DNA of 53,264 nucleotides from Methylobacter sp. (GCA_028712225.1 JAQTQN010000004.1:1-53264); one strand, 5' to 3'. Numbered from the stretch's first letter, positions 18,972-25,465 are shown. The notes: generated by a model not told the origin, from the letters alone. Program-made: numbers and translations.

Positions 18972-19437
18972 GAAAACAGCACCCAAGTCGTATAACTCAG
19001 ACGCCTAAGTGGCAGTATTTCTTAAAGAAAATGATTACACCAAATGGTAATGCGACCACATTCACAAAAAAAATCCGTTTGATCAATACAACGCAGCCAT
19101 TTCAGTTCATCACCACCAAAGTTAGCCATACCACTTTACTTAAACCTTGCAGCAAATCATAAAAGCCATGAATATCATTACAAATCACCAAACAATGATT
19201 TTTTTGCCCCCCCCCCCCACACACACATTCCAACTCATTGCAAAGCACTTTACCAATCCCTCGTAAATAAAGTTTTTATATTGTTTGTAAGACAATTTTA
19301 ATACTCCGAAGGTATCCTGCTACCGAAAACATCTGGCATGCTTAAATTCCTTATTTGATTTTATATTGACGTATAATTATCAACGGCATTAGTCAATGCT
19401 TATTCAAGCCTCATCATTACACAACTGGAAAAACAAA
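18972..19437. other. Gene-free stretch with a C12 homopolymer
   Basis: About 470 nt without a convincing gene. A 74-codon plus-strand frame at 18938-19162 has no ribosome site and no recognisable family. The notable content is a run of 12 C (19207-19218) followed by an (AC)n tract, and a TATAAT at 19372-19377 that could be the -10 box of the downstream HAD-UbiA gene but lacks a clear -35. Confidence 0.6.
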
Positions 19438-20877
19438 ATGACAGGAGTATCGACCACTCCCCTTATCGTTGATTTGGATGGAACACTGACACCGACAGAT
19501 ACCTTAGTCGAATCCATAATTCAACTTGGCAAGCAACACCCTTTTGATCTTTTCAAGCTCCCCTTTTGGCTCCTCAAAGGACGCGCTGAATTTAAGGCAA
19601 GCATAGCAGCTCGCTCGACATTGCCGGTTTCCAATTTGCCCTACCGCGTAGAGTTGATCGATTATTTACGTATTGAAAAGCAGAGCGGCAGATCTTTGAT
19701 TCTTGCCACTGCAGCAAACATCAATATTGCCAATGCGGTCGCGGCGCACCTTGATTTATTCGATACGGTACTTGCCAGTAGCGAAAATCATAATCTTAAA
19801 GGCTCAGCCAAACTGACAGCAATTCAGCAGGCGGTTGGCCCGGACTTTGTTTATGCGGGCGACAGCCAAGCGGACTTGCCTATTTGGCAAGCAGCAAAAT
19901 CAGCAATTTTGGTTAACACATCAAACAAAGTTGGCAATACTGTTCGCAAAAGCACGCCTATCGAACTAGAAATTCCAGCCTTAAAACTTGACTTAAAACT
20001 TTGGTTGCGGGCTATGCGGGTGCATCAATGGTTTAAGAATTTACTGTTATTCGTCCCGCTATTGACCGCCTTTTCGTTTCACGACATTGATAGATTGCTA
20101 GCGATAACACTGGCTTTTTTTGCCTTTTCCTTTACGGCATCGGCAACGTATATGGGTAATGACTTGTGGGATCTTGATAATGACCGCGCCCACCCTCGCA
20201 AAAAGCATCGTCCGTTTGCTAGCGCTCAAATCCCCATTTTAAAGGGGCTTGGATTAGCAGCCGTATTATTAATTTTAGGATTAACACTAGCGATAAATGT
20301 ATCGTTAAATTTTTTCTGGATGTTGCTGTTATATCTGGCAATCACAACAACTTATACATGGATACTTAAGGCCTATGTCTTAATTGATGTCATAGTCCTT
20401 TCACTGCTTTATACCTTGCGCATCATTGCAGGCTCTATTGCCATGAATATTCCTGCCAGCTCATGGTTGCTGGCTTTTTCCGTATTTATCTTTTTCAGCC
20501 TTGCATTGGTTAAACGTTGTTCAGAATTGGTGACTTTGCAGCAAAGAGGGCAACAAGTCACACATGGTCGCGATTACCGCACCACGGATCTTGTGGTACT
20601 CTGGCCTCTGGGTGTCGGCGCTGCATTATCTGCTGTCGTCGTATTCGGATTATTCATCAGTGCAACTGAAACTCAGGTACGCTACGCTAGCCCGCAAGGT
20701 TTGTGGCTAGTGGCAATTGGATTAATTTATTGGCTGGCCCGCTTATGGATTAAAACAGCTCGTGAAGAAATGCATGACGATCCACTGGTGTTTGCAATTC
20801 GCGATATCGGTAGCCGCCTGACTATCTTGGCAATGATTGTTATAACCCTTGCCGCCCACTTTATAACCTTGGATTAA
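19438..20877 (+). CDS. HAD phosphatase-UbiA prenyltransferase fusion (polyprenyl-phosphate sugar-phosphate transferase type)
   Basis: A two-domain membrane protein of 479 aa. Residues ~8-175 form a complete HAD phosphatase: DLDGT with nucleophile Asp12 and Asp14, LATAAN (motif II), a lysine in NLKGSAK (motif III) and GDSQAD (motif IV, ~141). Residues ~190-479 are a UbiA-family integral-membrane domain with MRVHQWFKNLLLFVPL, the metal-binding NDLWDLDNDRAHPRKKHRP (~241) and LYTLRIIAGS. This UbiA subgroup resembles decaprenyl-phosphate phosphoribosyltransferase, so the likely role is making a polyprenyl-phospho-pentose and dephosphorylating it; that is inferred. GGAA lies 7 nt before the ATG. 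The next two genes (transporter, GT-C enzyme) fit the same pathway. Confidence 0.85.
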   Translation: MTGVSTTPLIVDLDGTLTPTDTLVESIIQLGKQHPFDLFKLPFWLLKGRAEFKASIAARSTLPVSNLPYRVELIDYLRIEKQSGRSLILATAANINIANAVAAHLDLFDTVLASSENHNLKGSAKLTAIQQAVGPDFVYAGDSQADLPIWQAAKSAILVNTSNKVGNTVRKSTPIELEIPALKLDLKLWLRAMRVHQWFKNLLLFVPLLTAFSFHDIDRLLAITLAFFAFSFTASATYMGNDLWDLDNDRAHPRKKHRPFASAQIPILKGLGLAAVLLILGLTLAINVSLNFFWMLLLYLAITTTYTWILKAYVLIDVIVLSLLYTLRIIAGSIAMNIPASSWLLAFSVFIFFSLALVKRCSELVTLQQRGQQVTHGRDYRTTDLVVLWPLGVGAALSAVVVFGLFISATETQVRYASPQGLWLVAIGLIYWLARLWIKTAREEMHDDPLVFAIRDIGSRLTILAMIVITLAAHFITLD

Positions 20878-20880
20878 CTC

Positions 20881-21246
20881 ATGCGTGTTCTGTTAGTCGC
20901 TGTCATCAGCATCATTCTTTCTGTCGCCGCTCAGTTTTTGCTGAAAGCAGGCATGTCGAATATGGAAATCAAACAAGCATTAGCGCAACCTTTAACGTTA
21001 CGTTTGCCTTGGATTGTAATGACTAATAAATTCATATTTGGCGGATTCGCACTTTACGGTCTGGGTGCAATCGTATGGCTGAAGGTGCTATCCACTTGGG
21101 ATGTCAGCAAAGCCTATCCGCTGGTTGGCTTAGGATTTGGCTTAACTGTACTCGTAGGCATGGCTTTGGGAGAAAGCGTATCTGCACTTCGTGTTCTTGG
21201 GGTGTTGTTAATTTGTGAGGGAGTATGGTTGGTGGCAAACTCATGA
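20881..21246 (+). CDS. Small DMT/EamA-type membrane protein (ArnE-like flippase subunit)
   Basis: A 121-aa protein with four predicted membrane helices: an N-terminal one with LLVAVISIILSVAAQFLLK, two central ones around FALYGLGAIVWLKVLS and AYPLVGLGFGLTVLVG, and a final VLGVLLICEGVWLVANS. Size and the AYPL motif fit the small multidrug resistance/ArnE-like branch of the DMT superfamily, some members of which flip undecaprenyl-phospho-sugars. The gene begins 3 nt after the HAD-UbiA stop and precedes an ArnT-like enzyme, so flipping the lipid-linked sugar is the most likely job; a solute exporter role cannot be excluded. Confidence 0.75.
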   Translation: MRVLLVAVISIILSVAAQFLLKAGMSNMEIKQALAQPLTLRLPWIVMTNKFIFGGFALYGLGAIVWLKVLSTWDVSKAYPLVGLGFGLTVLVGMALGESVSALRVLGVLLICEGVWLVANS

Positions 21247-21312
21247 AAAATGAATAGTTTATAAAAAACCACCTACAACATAGACATCGCCATTTATTTT
21301 ATAGAGCAGATT

Positions 21313-22626
21313 ATGAAATTTTCATCAAACCAAATTAGTTGGTTAAACATATTGGTTTTTTCTGTTGTCGTTTTAAAAGCTATGCTTTTGCTAGTTATAT
21401 TCCCTTGGTTACTCCCTAAACTCGGCAACAGCTTCCAGGCCGGCCTATTCCCTGACGGTTACGGTGATATTGCGTCTAACTTGGTTGCTGGTAACGGTTA
21501 CCGAATGTATGATGATACAAGCCTTACCATGCTTAGATCCCCTGGTTTTGTTCTAGTTCTCGCAGGTCTATTCTTGTTTTTCGGAAAGAGTCTTTTTGCT
21601 GTTCAAGTTATGCAATTACTAATGTCTCTAGTAACTGCCGCAATCATTTATTTCCTAGCTAATCGACTTTTCAAAACACAATCAATTTCCGTTGCTGCCT
21701 CATTAATATTCCTGTTCCATCCCGGAGTGTTAATCGCCGAAACGCGAGGCGGCATTGAAAGCACGCTTATGCTCTGTTTTACAGGGTGCATTGCATTATC
21801 GTACCTGGTGCTAGATCACCCCAGATGGCGAAACTTTATTTACTTTGGAATTGCCTTCGGATTGACAATGTTAGTCAAAAGCTCTGTCGCAATTTACTTC
21901 CCAGCTCTGATGGCAATTGCTTTGTGGCGAAAGCCAAAGGGCTTGTCTGTTACTACCTTACTAACACGATTCGCAGTCGCTGGATTGGTGTCATTAATAA
22001 TAATGCTGCCGTGGATTATTAGAAATTACAATATTTCTGGTCAATTTGTACCAACAATGACAGTTGGCGGCCTTGCTTTATTTCAAGGTGCCTATTTAGT
22101 AAAGAATGCCGACAGCGAAAAGGACAGCTATGTTTTGCTAAACGAGGCCGCAGACAAGCAAATTAAGATAGCCCATGAGATGAACCTAAAAATACATGAG
22201 GATTTTTTTCCTCAGTTTTATTCACCTAACGATGAAATCAACTATTACAATCAACTCGGACGTCTCGCGATAAGCGATTACCGAGAGTCACCATGGTTGT
22301 TGATAAAGGCAATCGAACACAACAGCTGGGCATTTTGGTTTCAAGGACGCACCGAGCGAGCCACGATACTCAATATTATTATTACGGCCCCCATCCTTAT
22401 CCTTATGATTTTTGGCGGGGTACTGGCACTTAAAGTTACCAGTGACACATGGATCCTATTGGTAGCACTTTTTGCTTTTATCGCACCTCATCTATTGATC
22501 TTATCTATGGCCCGTTATCATATAATTCTCGTCCCATTAATTTCGATACTAGTCGCAGTCTCAGTAATTCATTGCTGGCTGCTACTTAAAACGAGACATC
22601 TGAAACCTAATGAACTGTCGTTATAG
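21313..22626 (+). CDS. Family 39-type (ArnT/PMT-like) membrane glycosyltransferase
   Basis: A 437-aa protein with roughly 9-11 hydrophobic segments. After the first helix comes a periplasmic loop with LFPDGYGDIASNLVAGNGY, the acidic loop expected of GT-C enzymes, and then a DDTSLTMLRSPGFVLVLAGLF stretch typical of GT39 family proteins. GT-C enzymes transfer a sugar from a polyprenyl-phosphate donor on the periplasmic face. No acceptor can be named. GAG lies 6 nt before the ATG. It follows the HAD-UbiA and DMT genes on the same strand with a 66-nt gap. Confidence 0.8.
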   Translation: MKFSSNQISWLNILVFSVVVLKAMLLLVIFPWLLPKLGNSFQAGLFPDGYGDIASNLVAGNGYRMYDDTSLTMLRSPGFVLVLAGLFLFFGKSLFAVQVMQLLMSLVTAAIIYFLANRLFKTQSISVAASLIFLFHPGVLIAETRGGIESTLMLCFTGCIALSYLVLDHPRWRNFIYFGIAFGLTMLVKSSVAIYFPALMAIALWRKPKGLSVTTLLTRFAVAGLVSLIIMLPWIIRNYNISGQFVPTMTVGGLALFQGAYLVKNADSEKDSYVLLNEAADKQIKIAHEMNLKIHEDFFPQFYSPNDEINYYNQLGRLAISDYRESPWLLIKAIEHNSWAFWFQGRTERATILNIIITAPILILMIFGGVLALKVTSDTWILLVALFAFIAPHLLILSMARYHIILVPLISILVAVSVIHCWLLLKTRHLKPNELSL

Positions 22627-23101
22627 CGATTTTAAAGCTGGTAATAAAATATCCATAGCATCTCCACAACAAGAAACCACCCTCTACTGAAGCTGATGCT
22701 TAAGTCGAAAGTCATGGTTAGCAGAAGCGATGACTAAGAAAATCAAAGCGCCAGCAACTAAACATATTGCGTTAACAAAAAACAATGGGGTATGCTCGAC
22801 GCAAGAAAAATACCCTAGCCGATTGATTTAGCGGCAATGAATTCATATTTTGTTAATAGTCTCCAAAAAAACAATTTTCGTAACGCGCACATTCCATTAT
22901 CTGGCTCGTTCCAAATTTTTTGGCACTACATTCAAAAACGGGGCATTTATGCAACAAAAAACAACAAGTAGCCGCCCCAAATAAATACAACATCCTATGC
23001 AATCAAATTAGATTAAAGACATACTTGCTCATTACTAACTCTACTGTCATTCAGTTAAATATCTAAACACAAATCCTGCCCTCATTAAGCTGCATAAAAA
23101 A
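22627..23101. other. Gene-free stretch upstream of the exosortase
   Basis: 475 nt, AT-rich, with no open frame worth calling and no hairpin with a T-run that I can see. A TGGCAC at 22921-22926 recalls the first half of a sigma-54 site, but the required GC-containing second half is absent. Confidence 0.5.
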
Positions 23102-24709
23102 ATGAATTCTCCTGACAAAACCAACTCACCCATTGATTTGAAAAAACCAACCATCATTTTATCTATTTGGGTTTTTGCTCTGCTATTGCTTGGCTTAACA
23201 TTTAAAAGCATTCTTGAGGAAATGATCGGTATATGGATAAACGTGGAGGAATATAGCCACGGTTTTTTTATACCTGTAATCAGTGTTTACTTTTTATGGC
23301 TTCGGAGGAAAGAGCTAAAATTTATTGATAATTTTAAAGATTCCTTGCCCGGACTTATAATTACAGTCACAGGCTTGCTATTGCTCCTTATAGGTACATT
23401 GGCAACCGCAAGAGTAGTTGAACTGTATTCATTTATAGTAACGTTAACAGGGGTGTTTGCTATTGCATTCGGCACACAAGGGTTACGTGTCGGCGCAATA
23501 CCGTTGCTGTTTCTAATTTTTATGGTACCAATTCCTGCGGTTATTCTGAACAACCTGTCTTCAAAATTGCAGTTGATTTCGTCATGGCTAGGCGTCGAAT
23601 TTATTCGTGCCTGCGACATCATGGTCCATCTTGATGGCAATGTAATTGATCTGGGTATTTATAAATTACAAGTGGTTGATGCTTGCAGTGGACTGCGTTA
23701 CTTATTTCCCTTAGCAAGTCTTTCTTTTCTGTGCGCTTATTTGTTTAAAGGACCTTTTTGGCAAAAAGTACTGATTTTTCTTTCATCCGCTCCATTAACC
23801 ATTTTCATGAACAGTTTTCGCATTGGTGTCATCGGCATCCTAGTTGATAACTGGGGAACAGAAATGGCAGAAGGCTTTTTGCATGATTTTGAAGGCTGGA
23901 TTATCTTTTTGTTCTGCATGGCTTTACTGTTTATGGAAATGTGGTTTTTATCCAGACTCAGCGGGAAAAAAGTGCCATTTAATGAACTCGTTTTAATTCC
24001 AAACGAATGGTCAGGTAGTGGCGAACAGAAAAACCCCGAAATTAAATTTAATAAAACGATACTTGTGTTGCTGTTATTGCTATGTATTACCGCAATTACA
24101 TCTAATTATATTAAGGGACGCGAAGAAATTATTCCTGCACGCAAAGCCTTTCTTAATTTCCCATTGCAACTGGGACCATGGCAAGGGCGTAATGACTACC
24201 TTAGCCAATTCTATCTCGATCAACTAAAGCTAACAGACTATGTAATTATTAACTATGCTGCCCCAGAATCAGCTGGCAGTGTCAATTTTTATAGCGCTTA
24301 TTATCAGTCTCAACGCCAAGGCGCTTCAATACATTCCCCAAAAGCATGCATGCCGGGTGATGGTTGGAAAATCGCCCAATTTGGACAACAAAGCTTTCCT
24401 GATATAACTGTTGACGGCAATGCGCTTGAGTTTAATCGTGCTGTTATTGAAAAAGGTGACAATAAACAGTTGGTTTACTACTGGTTTCAGCATCATGGTC
24501 GCACGATAACCAATGAGTATTTAGAAAAATGGTATTTGTTTTACGATGCCATCATTATGAATCGCAGTGACGGCGCTTTGGTAAGGCTGGTTACCAGCGT
24601 TGGAACTACAGAAAATATTGAAGCTGCGGATCAACGTTTAAAAGCTTTTATTAAGGACATGATGCCTCAATTACCGGCTTATATACCAGGCAAATCAGTT
24701 GATGAATAA
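23102..24709 (+). CDS. xrtD: Exosortase fused to an EpsI domain (XrtD-like)
   Basis: Exosortases are multi-spanning cysteine transpeptidases that process C-terminal sorting signals (PEP-CTERM and relatives). In this 535-aa protein residues ~15-290 form the exosortase with about eight helices and the three catalytic residues visible: Cys195 in VDACSGLRYLFPL, Arg240 in FMNSFRIGVIG and His261 in FLHDFEGW. Residues ~320-535 are an EpsI domain with one helix then a periplasmic part containing SPKACMPGDGWKI and YYWFQHHGRT. Fusion to EpsI is characteristic of the VPLPA-CTERM exosortase XrtD; the subtype is tentative. No target protein with a C-terminal sorting signal is in the window. The ATG lacks a clear ribosome site. 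Confidence 0.88.
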   Translation: MNSPDKTNSPIDLKKPTIILSIWVFALLLLGLTFKSILEEMIGIWINVEEYSHGFFIPVISVYFLWLRRKELKFIDNFKDSLPGLIITVTGLLLLLIGTLATARVVELYSFIVTLTGVFAIAFGTQGLRVGAIPLLFLIFMVPIPAVILNNLSSKLQLISSWLGVEFIRACDIMVHLDGNVIDLGIYKLQVVDACSGLRYLFPLASLSFLCAYLFKGPFWQKVLIFLSSAPLTIFMNSFRIGVIGILVDNWGTEMAEGFLHDFEGWIIFLFCMALLFMEMWFLSRLSGKKVPFNELVLIPNEWSGSGEQKNPEIKFNKTILVLLLLLCITAITSNYIKGREEIIPARKAFLNFPLQLGPWQGRNDYLSQFYLDQLKLTDYVIINYAAPESAGSVNFYSAYYQSQRQGASIHSPKACMPGDGWKIAQFGQQSFPDITVDGNALEFNRAVIEKGDNKQLVYYWFQHHGRTITNEYLEKWYLFYDAIIMNRSDGALVRLVTSVGTTENIEAADQRLKAFIKDMMPQLPAYIPGKSVDE

Positions 24710-24721
24710 AGCCCGCTCAGA

Positions 24722-25441
24722 GCGGTAACAGCTCAAGTTGATAGTGTGTGAAATTTGAAATATTTTGTATATTTTCACTTGTAACATGCTATCAAGAAAT
24801 CGTCCGCCCCGAGTGTGGCAGTAACCGAATAACAAAGTCCCGGCACACAGAGCAAGGGACGCAACGTTATCGATGGCAGAATGCAAATTGTTCAACCAAG
24901 ACATTCCTCTTGATTATCGCTATAAGGCCTATTGCCCGGAATCTCAAAAGGCAAGTAGTGGAGATGGCGATCAATGGCAGCGGTATTCGTGATACGGGGC
25001 GAATATTAGGTATTAACAAAAAACACCGTTATCAGCGTGCTAAAAAACAAGCCTTCTGTGAGGCCGAAATGGATGGACAGTGGTCTTATGTGGCTGGCGG
25101 TACGCCTTGATCATGCCACCGGCCCCATACCGACCTATGTCTTTGGCAGGCGAAAAGATGACGTTTTCAAGCCACTGAAGGCATTGCCTGAACCGTTCAA
25201 CACCGATGACTGGGAGCTTACGAGCGCCACTTAGCCGCTGCCAAACATCAAGTTGTCAACCCGAACACCCAGAAAATTGAACGCATAAACTTGACTTTAC
25301 GCACTTGGATCAAACGATTGACCTGGAAAATTATCTGTTTTTCCAAATCAGTTTTAATGCACGATACCGTTATTGGCCTGCTTATCAATAAGGTAGAGTT
25401 TAAAGGCGATATTCATGCCAAACTACAGATTTGACCCACTA
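24722..25441 (+). mobile_element. Decayed IS1-family insertion sequence
   Basis: About 720 bp whose ends match imperfectly as inverted repeats: GGTAACAGCTCAAGTTGATAG on the left versus the complement of the right end, GGTAGTGGGTCAAATCTGTAG. I count 16 of 25 positions equal. The length fits IS1 elements, and the coding content is an IS1 transposase broken into three frames. No convincing target duplication flanks it, so the copy is old or rearranged. Confidence 0.75.
24800..25429 (+). pseudogene. IS1-family transposase, frameshifted (InsA/InsB remnants)
   Basis: The InsA part reads PECGSNRITKSRHTEQGTQRYRW..., a zinc-finger start in which one cysteine of the second pair is gone, then VVEMAINGSGIRDTGRILGIN, the InsA helix-turn-helix. 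The InsB part begins EAEMDGQWSYVA in the same frame, continues in another frame with YVFGRRKDD and FNTDDW, and after a one-base loss resumes as YERHLAAAKHQVVNPNTQKIER, LTLRTWIKRL, ICFSKSVLMHDTVIGLLIN. At least two frameshifts and an internal loss in InsB mean it is inactive. Confidence 0.85.
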
Positions 25442-25465
25442 CCCTTGCTGAACTCATGTTGCATT

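Follow-up and report, generated by a model that had tools for sequence, protein, structure and literature searches.

A candidate three-component ribofuranosylation module in Methylobacter sp.

The 53,264-nucleotide stretch of Methylobacter sp. DNA analysed here (GCA_028712225.1 JAQTQN010000004.1:1-53264, hereafter the window) carries three consecutive genes at 19438-22626, encoding a HAD-UbiA fusion, a small DMT protein and a GT-C protein. A donor synthase, a transporter and a GT-C enzyme are thus encoded together, as in three-component extracytoplasmic pentofuranose systems, and the trio is quite probably such a system, adding D-ribofuranose outside the cytoplasmic membrane. In the proposed pathway, the UbiA domain would move 5-phosphoribose from PRPP onto polyprenyl phosphate, probably undecaprenyl phosphate, and the fused HAD domain would take off the 5'-phosphate to give polyprenyl-P-ribofuranose. 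The four-helix DMT protein would flip this lipid to the periplasmic side, where the GT-C protein, with Asp48 as the probable base, would transfer the ribofuranose to an outer glycan or protein. The first two steps are predicted from conserved residues and by analogy with a proved Citrobacter enzyme, the flipping step is suggested by gene pairing and weak family similarity, and the transfer step is proposed from fold family and gene position.

The initial annotation described this as an uncharacterised pentosylation route. ORF15 of Citrobacter youngae is the same kind of HAD-UbiA fusion, and Kelly et al. (PNAS 2024, PMC11127046) proved its function with mutants, NMR and an in vitro assay in which it forms farnesyl-P-ribofuranose from PRPP. 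A fused enzyme for the two steps was thus known beforehand, and the window pathway is a variant of the one described in 2024 and not new chemistry. The features of the module and its surroundings are collected in Table 1.

Table 1. Module features, sub-features and context genes, in window coordinates
Feature	Position	Strand	Evidence
HAD-UbiA fusion gene, 479 aa (PRP-PPPRS)	19438..20877	+	NF006088 610 bits, AlphaFold pLDDT 91.8
HAD (phosphoribose phosphatase, PRP) domain, residues 3-182, likely assignment	19444..19983	+	Pfam HAD 34.5 bits, HAD structure fits
UbiA-fold phosphoribosyltransferase domain, residues 185-477, supported assignment	19990..20868	+	8j8j fit, residue table, tree
DMT gene, 121 aa, four-helix, proposed polyprenyl-P-ribose flippase	20881..21246	+	ArnF 54 bits, gene pairing
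GT-C gene, 437 aa, proposed periplasmic pentosyltransferase	21313..22626	+	Pfam PMT_2 60.5 bits
Conserved donor cassette (fusion + DMT)	19423..21247	+	blastn vs L034-L037
Exosortase XrtD (VPLPA-CTERM type), context only	23102..24709	+	TIGR04152 582 bits
Degenerate IS1-type transposase remnant, context only	24748..25110	+	Pfam HTH_Tnp_IS1 29.5 bits

The HAD-UbiA fusion

The fusion protein is a full-length member of NCBIfam NF006088 (PRK08238), with a score of 610 bits (cut-off 351). The family name, 'UbiA family prenyltransferase', carries no function; for the member in the window, its residues and published work indicate phosphoribosyl transfer. An alternative in-frame ATG at 19396 would give a protein of 493 aa; the start at 19438 matches most near relatives. 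Both halves are recognised by Pfam (HAD 34.5 bits, UbiA 75.4 bits), and the motifs of both are in place, namely D12xD14xT16, T91, K125 and GD142xxxD146 in the HAD domain and NDLWDLDND and RVHQWFKN in the UbiA domain. The gene layout first read from the DNA, with such a fusion followed by DMT and GT-C genes, is confirmed for all three plus-strand ORFs.

The HAD half of the AlphaFold model (pLDDT 91.8 for the whole fusion) resembles known HAD structures, the best being 3fvv_A (Z 17.3). Its nucleophile D12 is invariant across 39 aligned fusions and is the equivalent of D18 in ORF15. Removal of the 5'-phosphate, the role that the initial annotation gave to this domain, is likely. All seven residues mutated in ORF15 (D18, N247, D248, D251, D255, R366 and E369; PMC11127046) are present in the window fusion at a constant offset of 6, and the equivalents of the last six are likewise invariant in the 39 fusions.

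Residues, tree and structure model support the UbiA half as a phosphoribosyltransferase of the decaprenyl-phosphate phosphoribosyltransferase kind, the relationship to the mycobacterial enzyme that had been noted at the outset. By sequence, the best solved-structure match of the fusion is the Mycobacterium tuberculosis decaprenyl-phosphate phosphoribosyltransferase 8j8j (E 6.6e-28), with which the model aligns over 285 residues (Z 29.1, rmsd 2.7); the best other UbiA entry reaches Z 21.7, and ordinary UbiA homologues do not exceed it. The PRPP contacts of Rv3806c include R22, K28, Y70, N73, D77, K87, R90, Q135, Y138 and K143 (PMC10994848). Nine of these ten are kept in the window protein (as R194, K200, Y238, N241, D245, K255, R258, Y306 and K311) and in 39/39 aligned fusions. 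The position of the tenth, Gln135, which contacts ribose O3 in Rv3806c, is T303 in the window protein, Thr in nearly all fusions and Ser in two. A further Rv3806c contact, Tyr157, is conserved in the window protein, with Phe replacing it in a few fusions. The ten quinone/heme UbiA proteins compared, drawn from this genome and related ones, carry G, E or L in place of K28, C or A in place of Y70, and T or N in place of K87.

In a maximum-likelihood tree a branch with 99/93 support separates these ten proteins from the phosphoribosyltransferase side, with Rv3806c not placed firmly within that side; the clustering with quinone or heme prenyltransferases, which the initial annotation had named as the result that would count against it, does not occur. 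An ordinary quinone, heme or lipid prenyltransferase with an unrelated HAD domain attached is extremely improbable, since the membership of the domain in the UbiA superfamily and its weak matches to the UbiA and CyoE models (35 and 29 bits) stand against the tree, the presence of every phosphoribosyl-site residue but Gln135, and two further UbiA-family genes of the quinone/heme kind already in the genome; for quinone and heme enzymes the tree and residues rule this reading out. The fusion scores 143 bits with NF008977, the Rv3806c equivalog, below the cut-off of 234, so that the window domain is not the same equivalog; the same type of activity is predicted for it.

A separate group of UbiA proteins (L139, L140, L141, L142, L143 and L128) keeps the equivalents of R22, K28, Y70, K87 and K143, with NE replacing ND, Gly replacing Gln135 and Asn replacing Tyr157. 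It is possibly another phosphoribosyl or phospho-sugar transferase.

Matches above the NF006088 cut-off occur in 27 of 151 genomes from the same taxonomic family and in 37 of 299 sampled across the phylum; the fusion is therefore a conserved family and not a product of chance. Its distribution is common but patchy. Near relatives include Methylomonas, Crenothrix and Methylococcaceae records, in keeping with the Methylococcales setting assumed in the initial annotation, and the phage records give a single partial match. The fusion protein is also matched by 96 plasmid records.

The sugar of the donor

The donor made in the window is likely to be ribosyl rather than arabinosyl, as first guessed from the lack of a nearby epimerase. 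The window neighbourhood contains no DprE1 or DprE2 homologue, and no epimerase gene lies beside the module. In a whole-genome search, the window genome (84% complete, assembly of 3.1 Mb) gives no match of DprE1 length, and neither do G014 (99% complete), G134, G116 and G038 (100% complete); six DprE1-type genomes score 331-372 bits in the same search. The case for absence rests partly on the relatives because of the completeness of the window genome. Since neither the window genome nor the genomes nearest to it give a DprE1-length match, ribose is probably not turned into arabinose, and the search rejects the arabinose reading for the window lineage.

Other fusions have different neighbours. 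Among 54 full-length fusion loci, a DprE1 homologue lies near the fusion in 23, accompanied by DprE2 in 17 of these, and a DMT gene is found in 20; both DMT and DprE1 occur in only two (one-sided Fisher test 0.0002, for loci that are related and so not independent). At L044, the DprE1 adjoining the fusion scores 358 bits and the DprE2 173 bits, both below the curated cut-offs of 500 and 250. The adjoining DprE1 and DprE2 genes in relatives fit polyprenyl-P-ribose as the product of the fusion. They also speak for the unlikely alternative that an epimerase encoded elsewhere converts this product, so that arabinofuranose or xylofuranose is added. Adjacency is not required for such an enzyme, since DprE1 of G125 lies ~134 kb from the fusion, and in Citrobacter O2 a single SDR enzyme turns ribose to xylose (PMC11127046). 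Against arabinose stands the search of the window genome, G014, G134, G116 and G038 described above; against xylose stands the neighbourhood evidence alone, in that the module has no adjacent epimerase gene. Ribofuranose is preferred, and the genome-wide contrast between presence and absence of DprE1 gives a prediction of arabinose or ribose.

The donor cassette, its proposed transporter and the exchangeable GT-C

Compared with L034-L037 by blastn, the window has 78-85% DNA identity over a segment that starts at 19423, 15 bp ahead of the fusion ATG, and ends at 21247-21260. The right limit is close to the DMT stop at 21246, and no similarity to these loci was found on either side. Behind the donor pair, L034-L036 carry a tandem of GT-C genes from two different families (L034:7788-10881), the first encoding 556 and the second 437 aa in L034 (555 and 426 aa in L035). 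L037 (2336-3616) has the second kind only, the junction falling cleanly at the DMT stop codon. The window GT-C joins neither L034/L035 kind directly at E 1e-3. By the initial annotation, a three-gene neighbourhood not conserved in relatives would count against it. This is half the case, as the fusion and DMT genes travel together; the three-gene unit is not conserved, the GT-C being different even in the closest relative.

The surroundings also vary. The left flank is conserved in two same-genus genomes up to ~18983 (90-93% identity), where it leads to an XrtD locus in opposite orientation, and the right flank is conserved in the same genus from ~25445 (87-91%), on different contigs from the left flank in the relatives. 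Between them, 18984-25445 holds the three genes, the exosortase XrtD and, at the right edge, the IS1 remnant, and looks like a replaced island. XrtD lies 475 bp behind the GT-C. A functional link between XrtD and the fusion was considered and rejected, as the two are on other contigs or far apart in relatives and several fusion genomes lack XrtD.

The DMT protein matches ArnF best, with 54 bits against a cut-off of 99, and so falls outside ArnF proper, which has no bearing on its proposed ArnF-like function; a sequence search of solved structures gave no relevant match for it. In 18 of the 54 full-length loci a DMT gene is the next gene after the fusion, and in two more it follows DprE1. A Vibrio alfacsensis plasmid (L165:6001-7790) carries the fusion-DMT pair inside an exosortase A polysaccharide locus, its DMT being 41% identical to that of the window. 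The pair is also carried by Methylomonas sp. LW13. GtrA is near the fusion in six of the 54 loci. In G125 (L049:8018-10417), an LPG_synthase_TM / flippase-like domain (TIGR00374, 64 bits) is joined to the HAD-UbiA fusion in one chain of ~800 residues. Open frames of 801-813 aa occur in G125, G816 and G820, all of the genus Methylomonas, and the frame lengths of G816 and G820 (803 and 813 aa) suggest the same architecture as in G125. In L108, the gene immediately upstream of the fusion encodes a homologue of the flippase-like domain. These arrangements support, from gene and domain order, a link between donor synthesis and a transporter, flipping itself being proposed. The natural joining of a flippase-like domain to a donor synthase makes the flipping step directly testable.

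The window GT-C scores 60.5 bits with Pfam PMT_2 and has a weak partial match to ArnT, 39 bits against a cut-off of 567, which places it outside ArnT. Its structure model, built from only six divergent sequences, has a pLDDT of 58.6. ArnT is the best solved-structure match of this low-confidence model (E 3.4e-4), a weak match because the model is poor, and the sequence search of solved structures gave no relevant match. Asp48, in the motif FPDGYGDIA, is likely the catalytic residue. ORF12 of Citrobacter, a GT136 enzyme, has a D31..E34-Y35 motif near its first helix; membership of the window GT-C in GT136 is rejected on the basis of this motif, as there is no D..EY in its first 150 residues. 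The relatives of this GT-C amount to one 38-bit match in 24 related genomes and four weak matches in 369 class genomes, making it nearly an orphan, and being so few and weak they do not allow its donor to be read from them.

It is conceivable, with a low probability, that the fusion and DMT protein feed GT-C enzymes encoded elsewhere and that the adjacent 437-aa GT-C uses another lipid-linked sugar. The GT-C is not conserved along with the donor pair, and the gene of its nearest class-sample relative (24% identity) is followed by one whose start reads, by eye, as a family-2 glycosyltransferase. Its position argues the other way, since it starts 66 bp behind the DMT gene on the same strand, and some GT-C gene follows the donor pair in most DMT-bearing relatives. 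Use of the ribose donor by the adjacent GT-C is the preferred reading. Periplasmic ribosylation in methanotrophs may be modular, a view that we hold with middling confidence. A fixed pair of synthase and small DMT would be retained as a sharp-bordered cassette behind which the GT-C is swapped, giving varied surface decorations. The flippase slot would be filled by unrelated DMT or GtrA proteins, or by the fused flippase-like domain in the single 800-residue chain, so that in some Methylomonas the synthesis of the lipid and its flipping would be physically coupled.

A tally of the families neighbouring the fusion shows no single recurring glycan locus. The neighbours include exosortase loci in the window and in Vibrio, and alpha-glucan enzymes in L052. 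In L050, L053 and L056, purC is directly upstream of the fusion with pilT/pilU-type ATPase genes beyond it, and purC is also found in L057 and L060. The proximity of pilT/pilU is a hint of pilin as the acceptor, or mere shared synteny. No neighbourhood is consistent enough to name a target, and the acceptor is accordingly given above as a proposed glycan or protein.

Comparison with known systems

The closest known system is that of Citrobacter youngae O1, in which ORF14 (MATE) is the proposed flippase and ORF12 (GT136) the transferase (PMC11127046). The window fusion has HAD and UbiA in the same order as ORF15, with the same catalytic residues, and a transporter and a GT-C are encoded nearby in both. 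The O1 system has no epimerase and its product is ribofuranose; the window module likewise has none beside it. The two differ in the transporter, which is a MATE protein in Citrobacter and a 121-aa, four-helix, ArnF-like DMT protein outside the MATE family in the window, and in the GT-C, which in the window lacks the D..EY motif of GT136. The window module also lies outside any O-antigen locus.

The mycobacterial pathway shares a UbiA-fold phosphoribosyltransferase with a nearly identical PRPP site. Rv3806c is a stand-alone enzyme, however, with the separate and unrelated phosphatase Rv3807c, and the product is epimerised to arabinose by DprE1/DprE2 and used by Emb/Aft transferases. This route has also been described with a small non-MATE transporter.

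The ArnE/ArnF-ArnT system, which transfers aminoarabinose to lipid A, resembles the window module in having a small DMT flippase and a GT-C transferase acting on an undecaprenyl-P-pentose. The window differs in having a single DMT, which is under the ArnF cut-off, and a GT-C that is just weakly ArnT-like. The Arn donor is made by other enzymes, ArnC and ArnD.

Relative to these systems, the apparent novelties are an ArnF-like protein in place of a MATE flippase, a GT-C that by its motif is predicted to be non-GT136, the exchange of GT-C genes behind a fixed donor pair, and, in Methylomonas, a flippase-like domain carried on one chain with the enzyme. The module would extend the three-component pentofuranose pathway of 2024 to methanotrophs, with a different class of flippase and a different GT-C.
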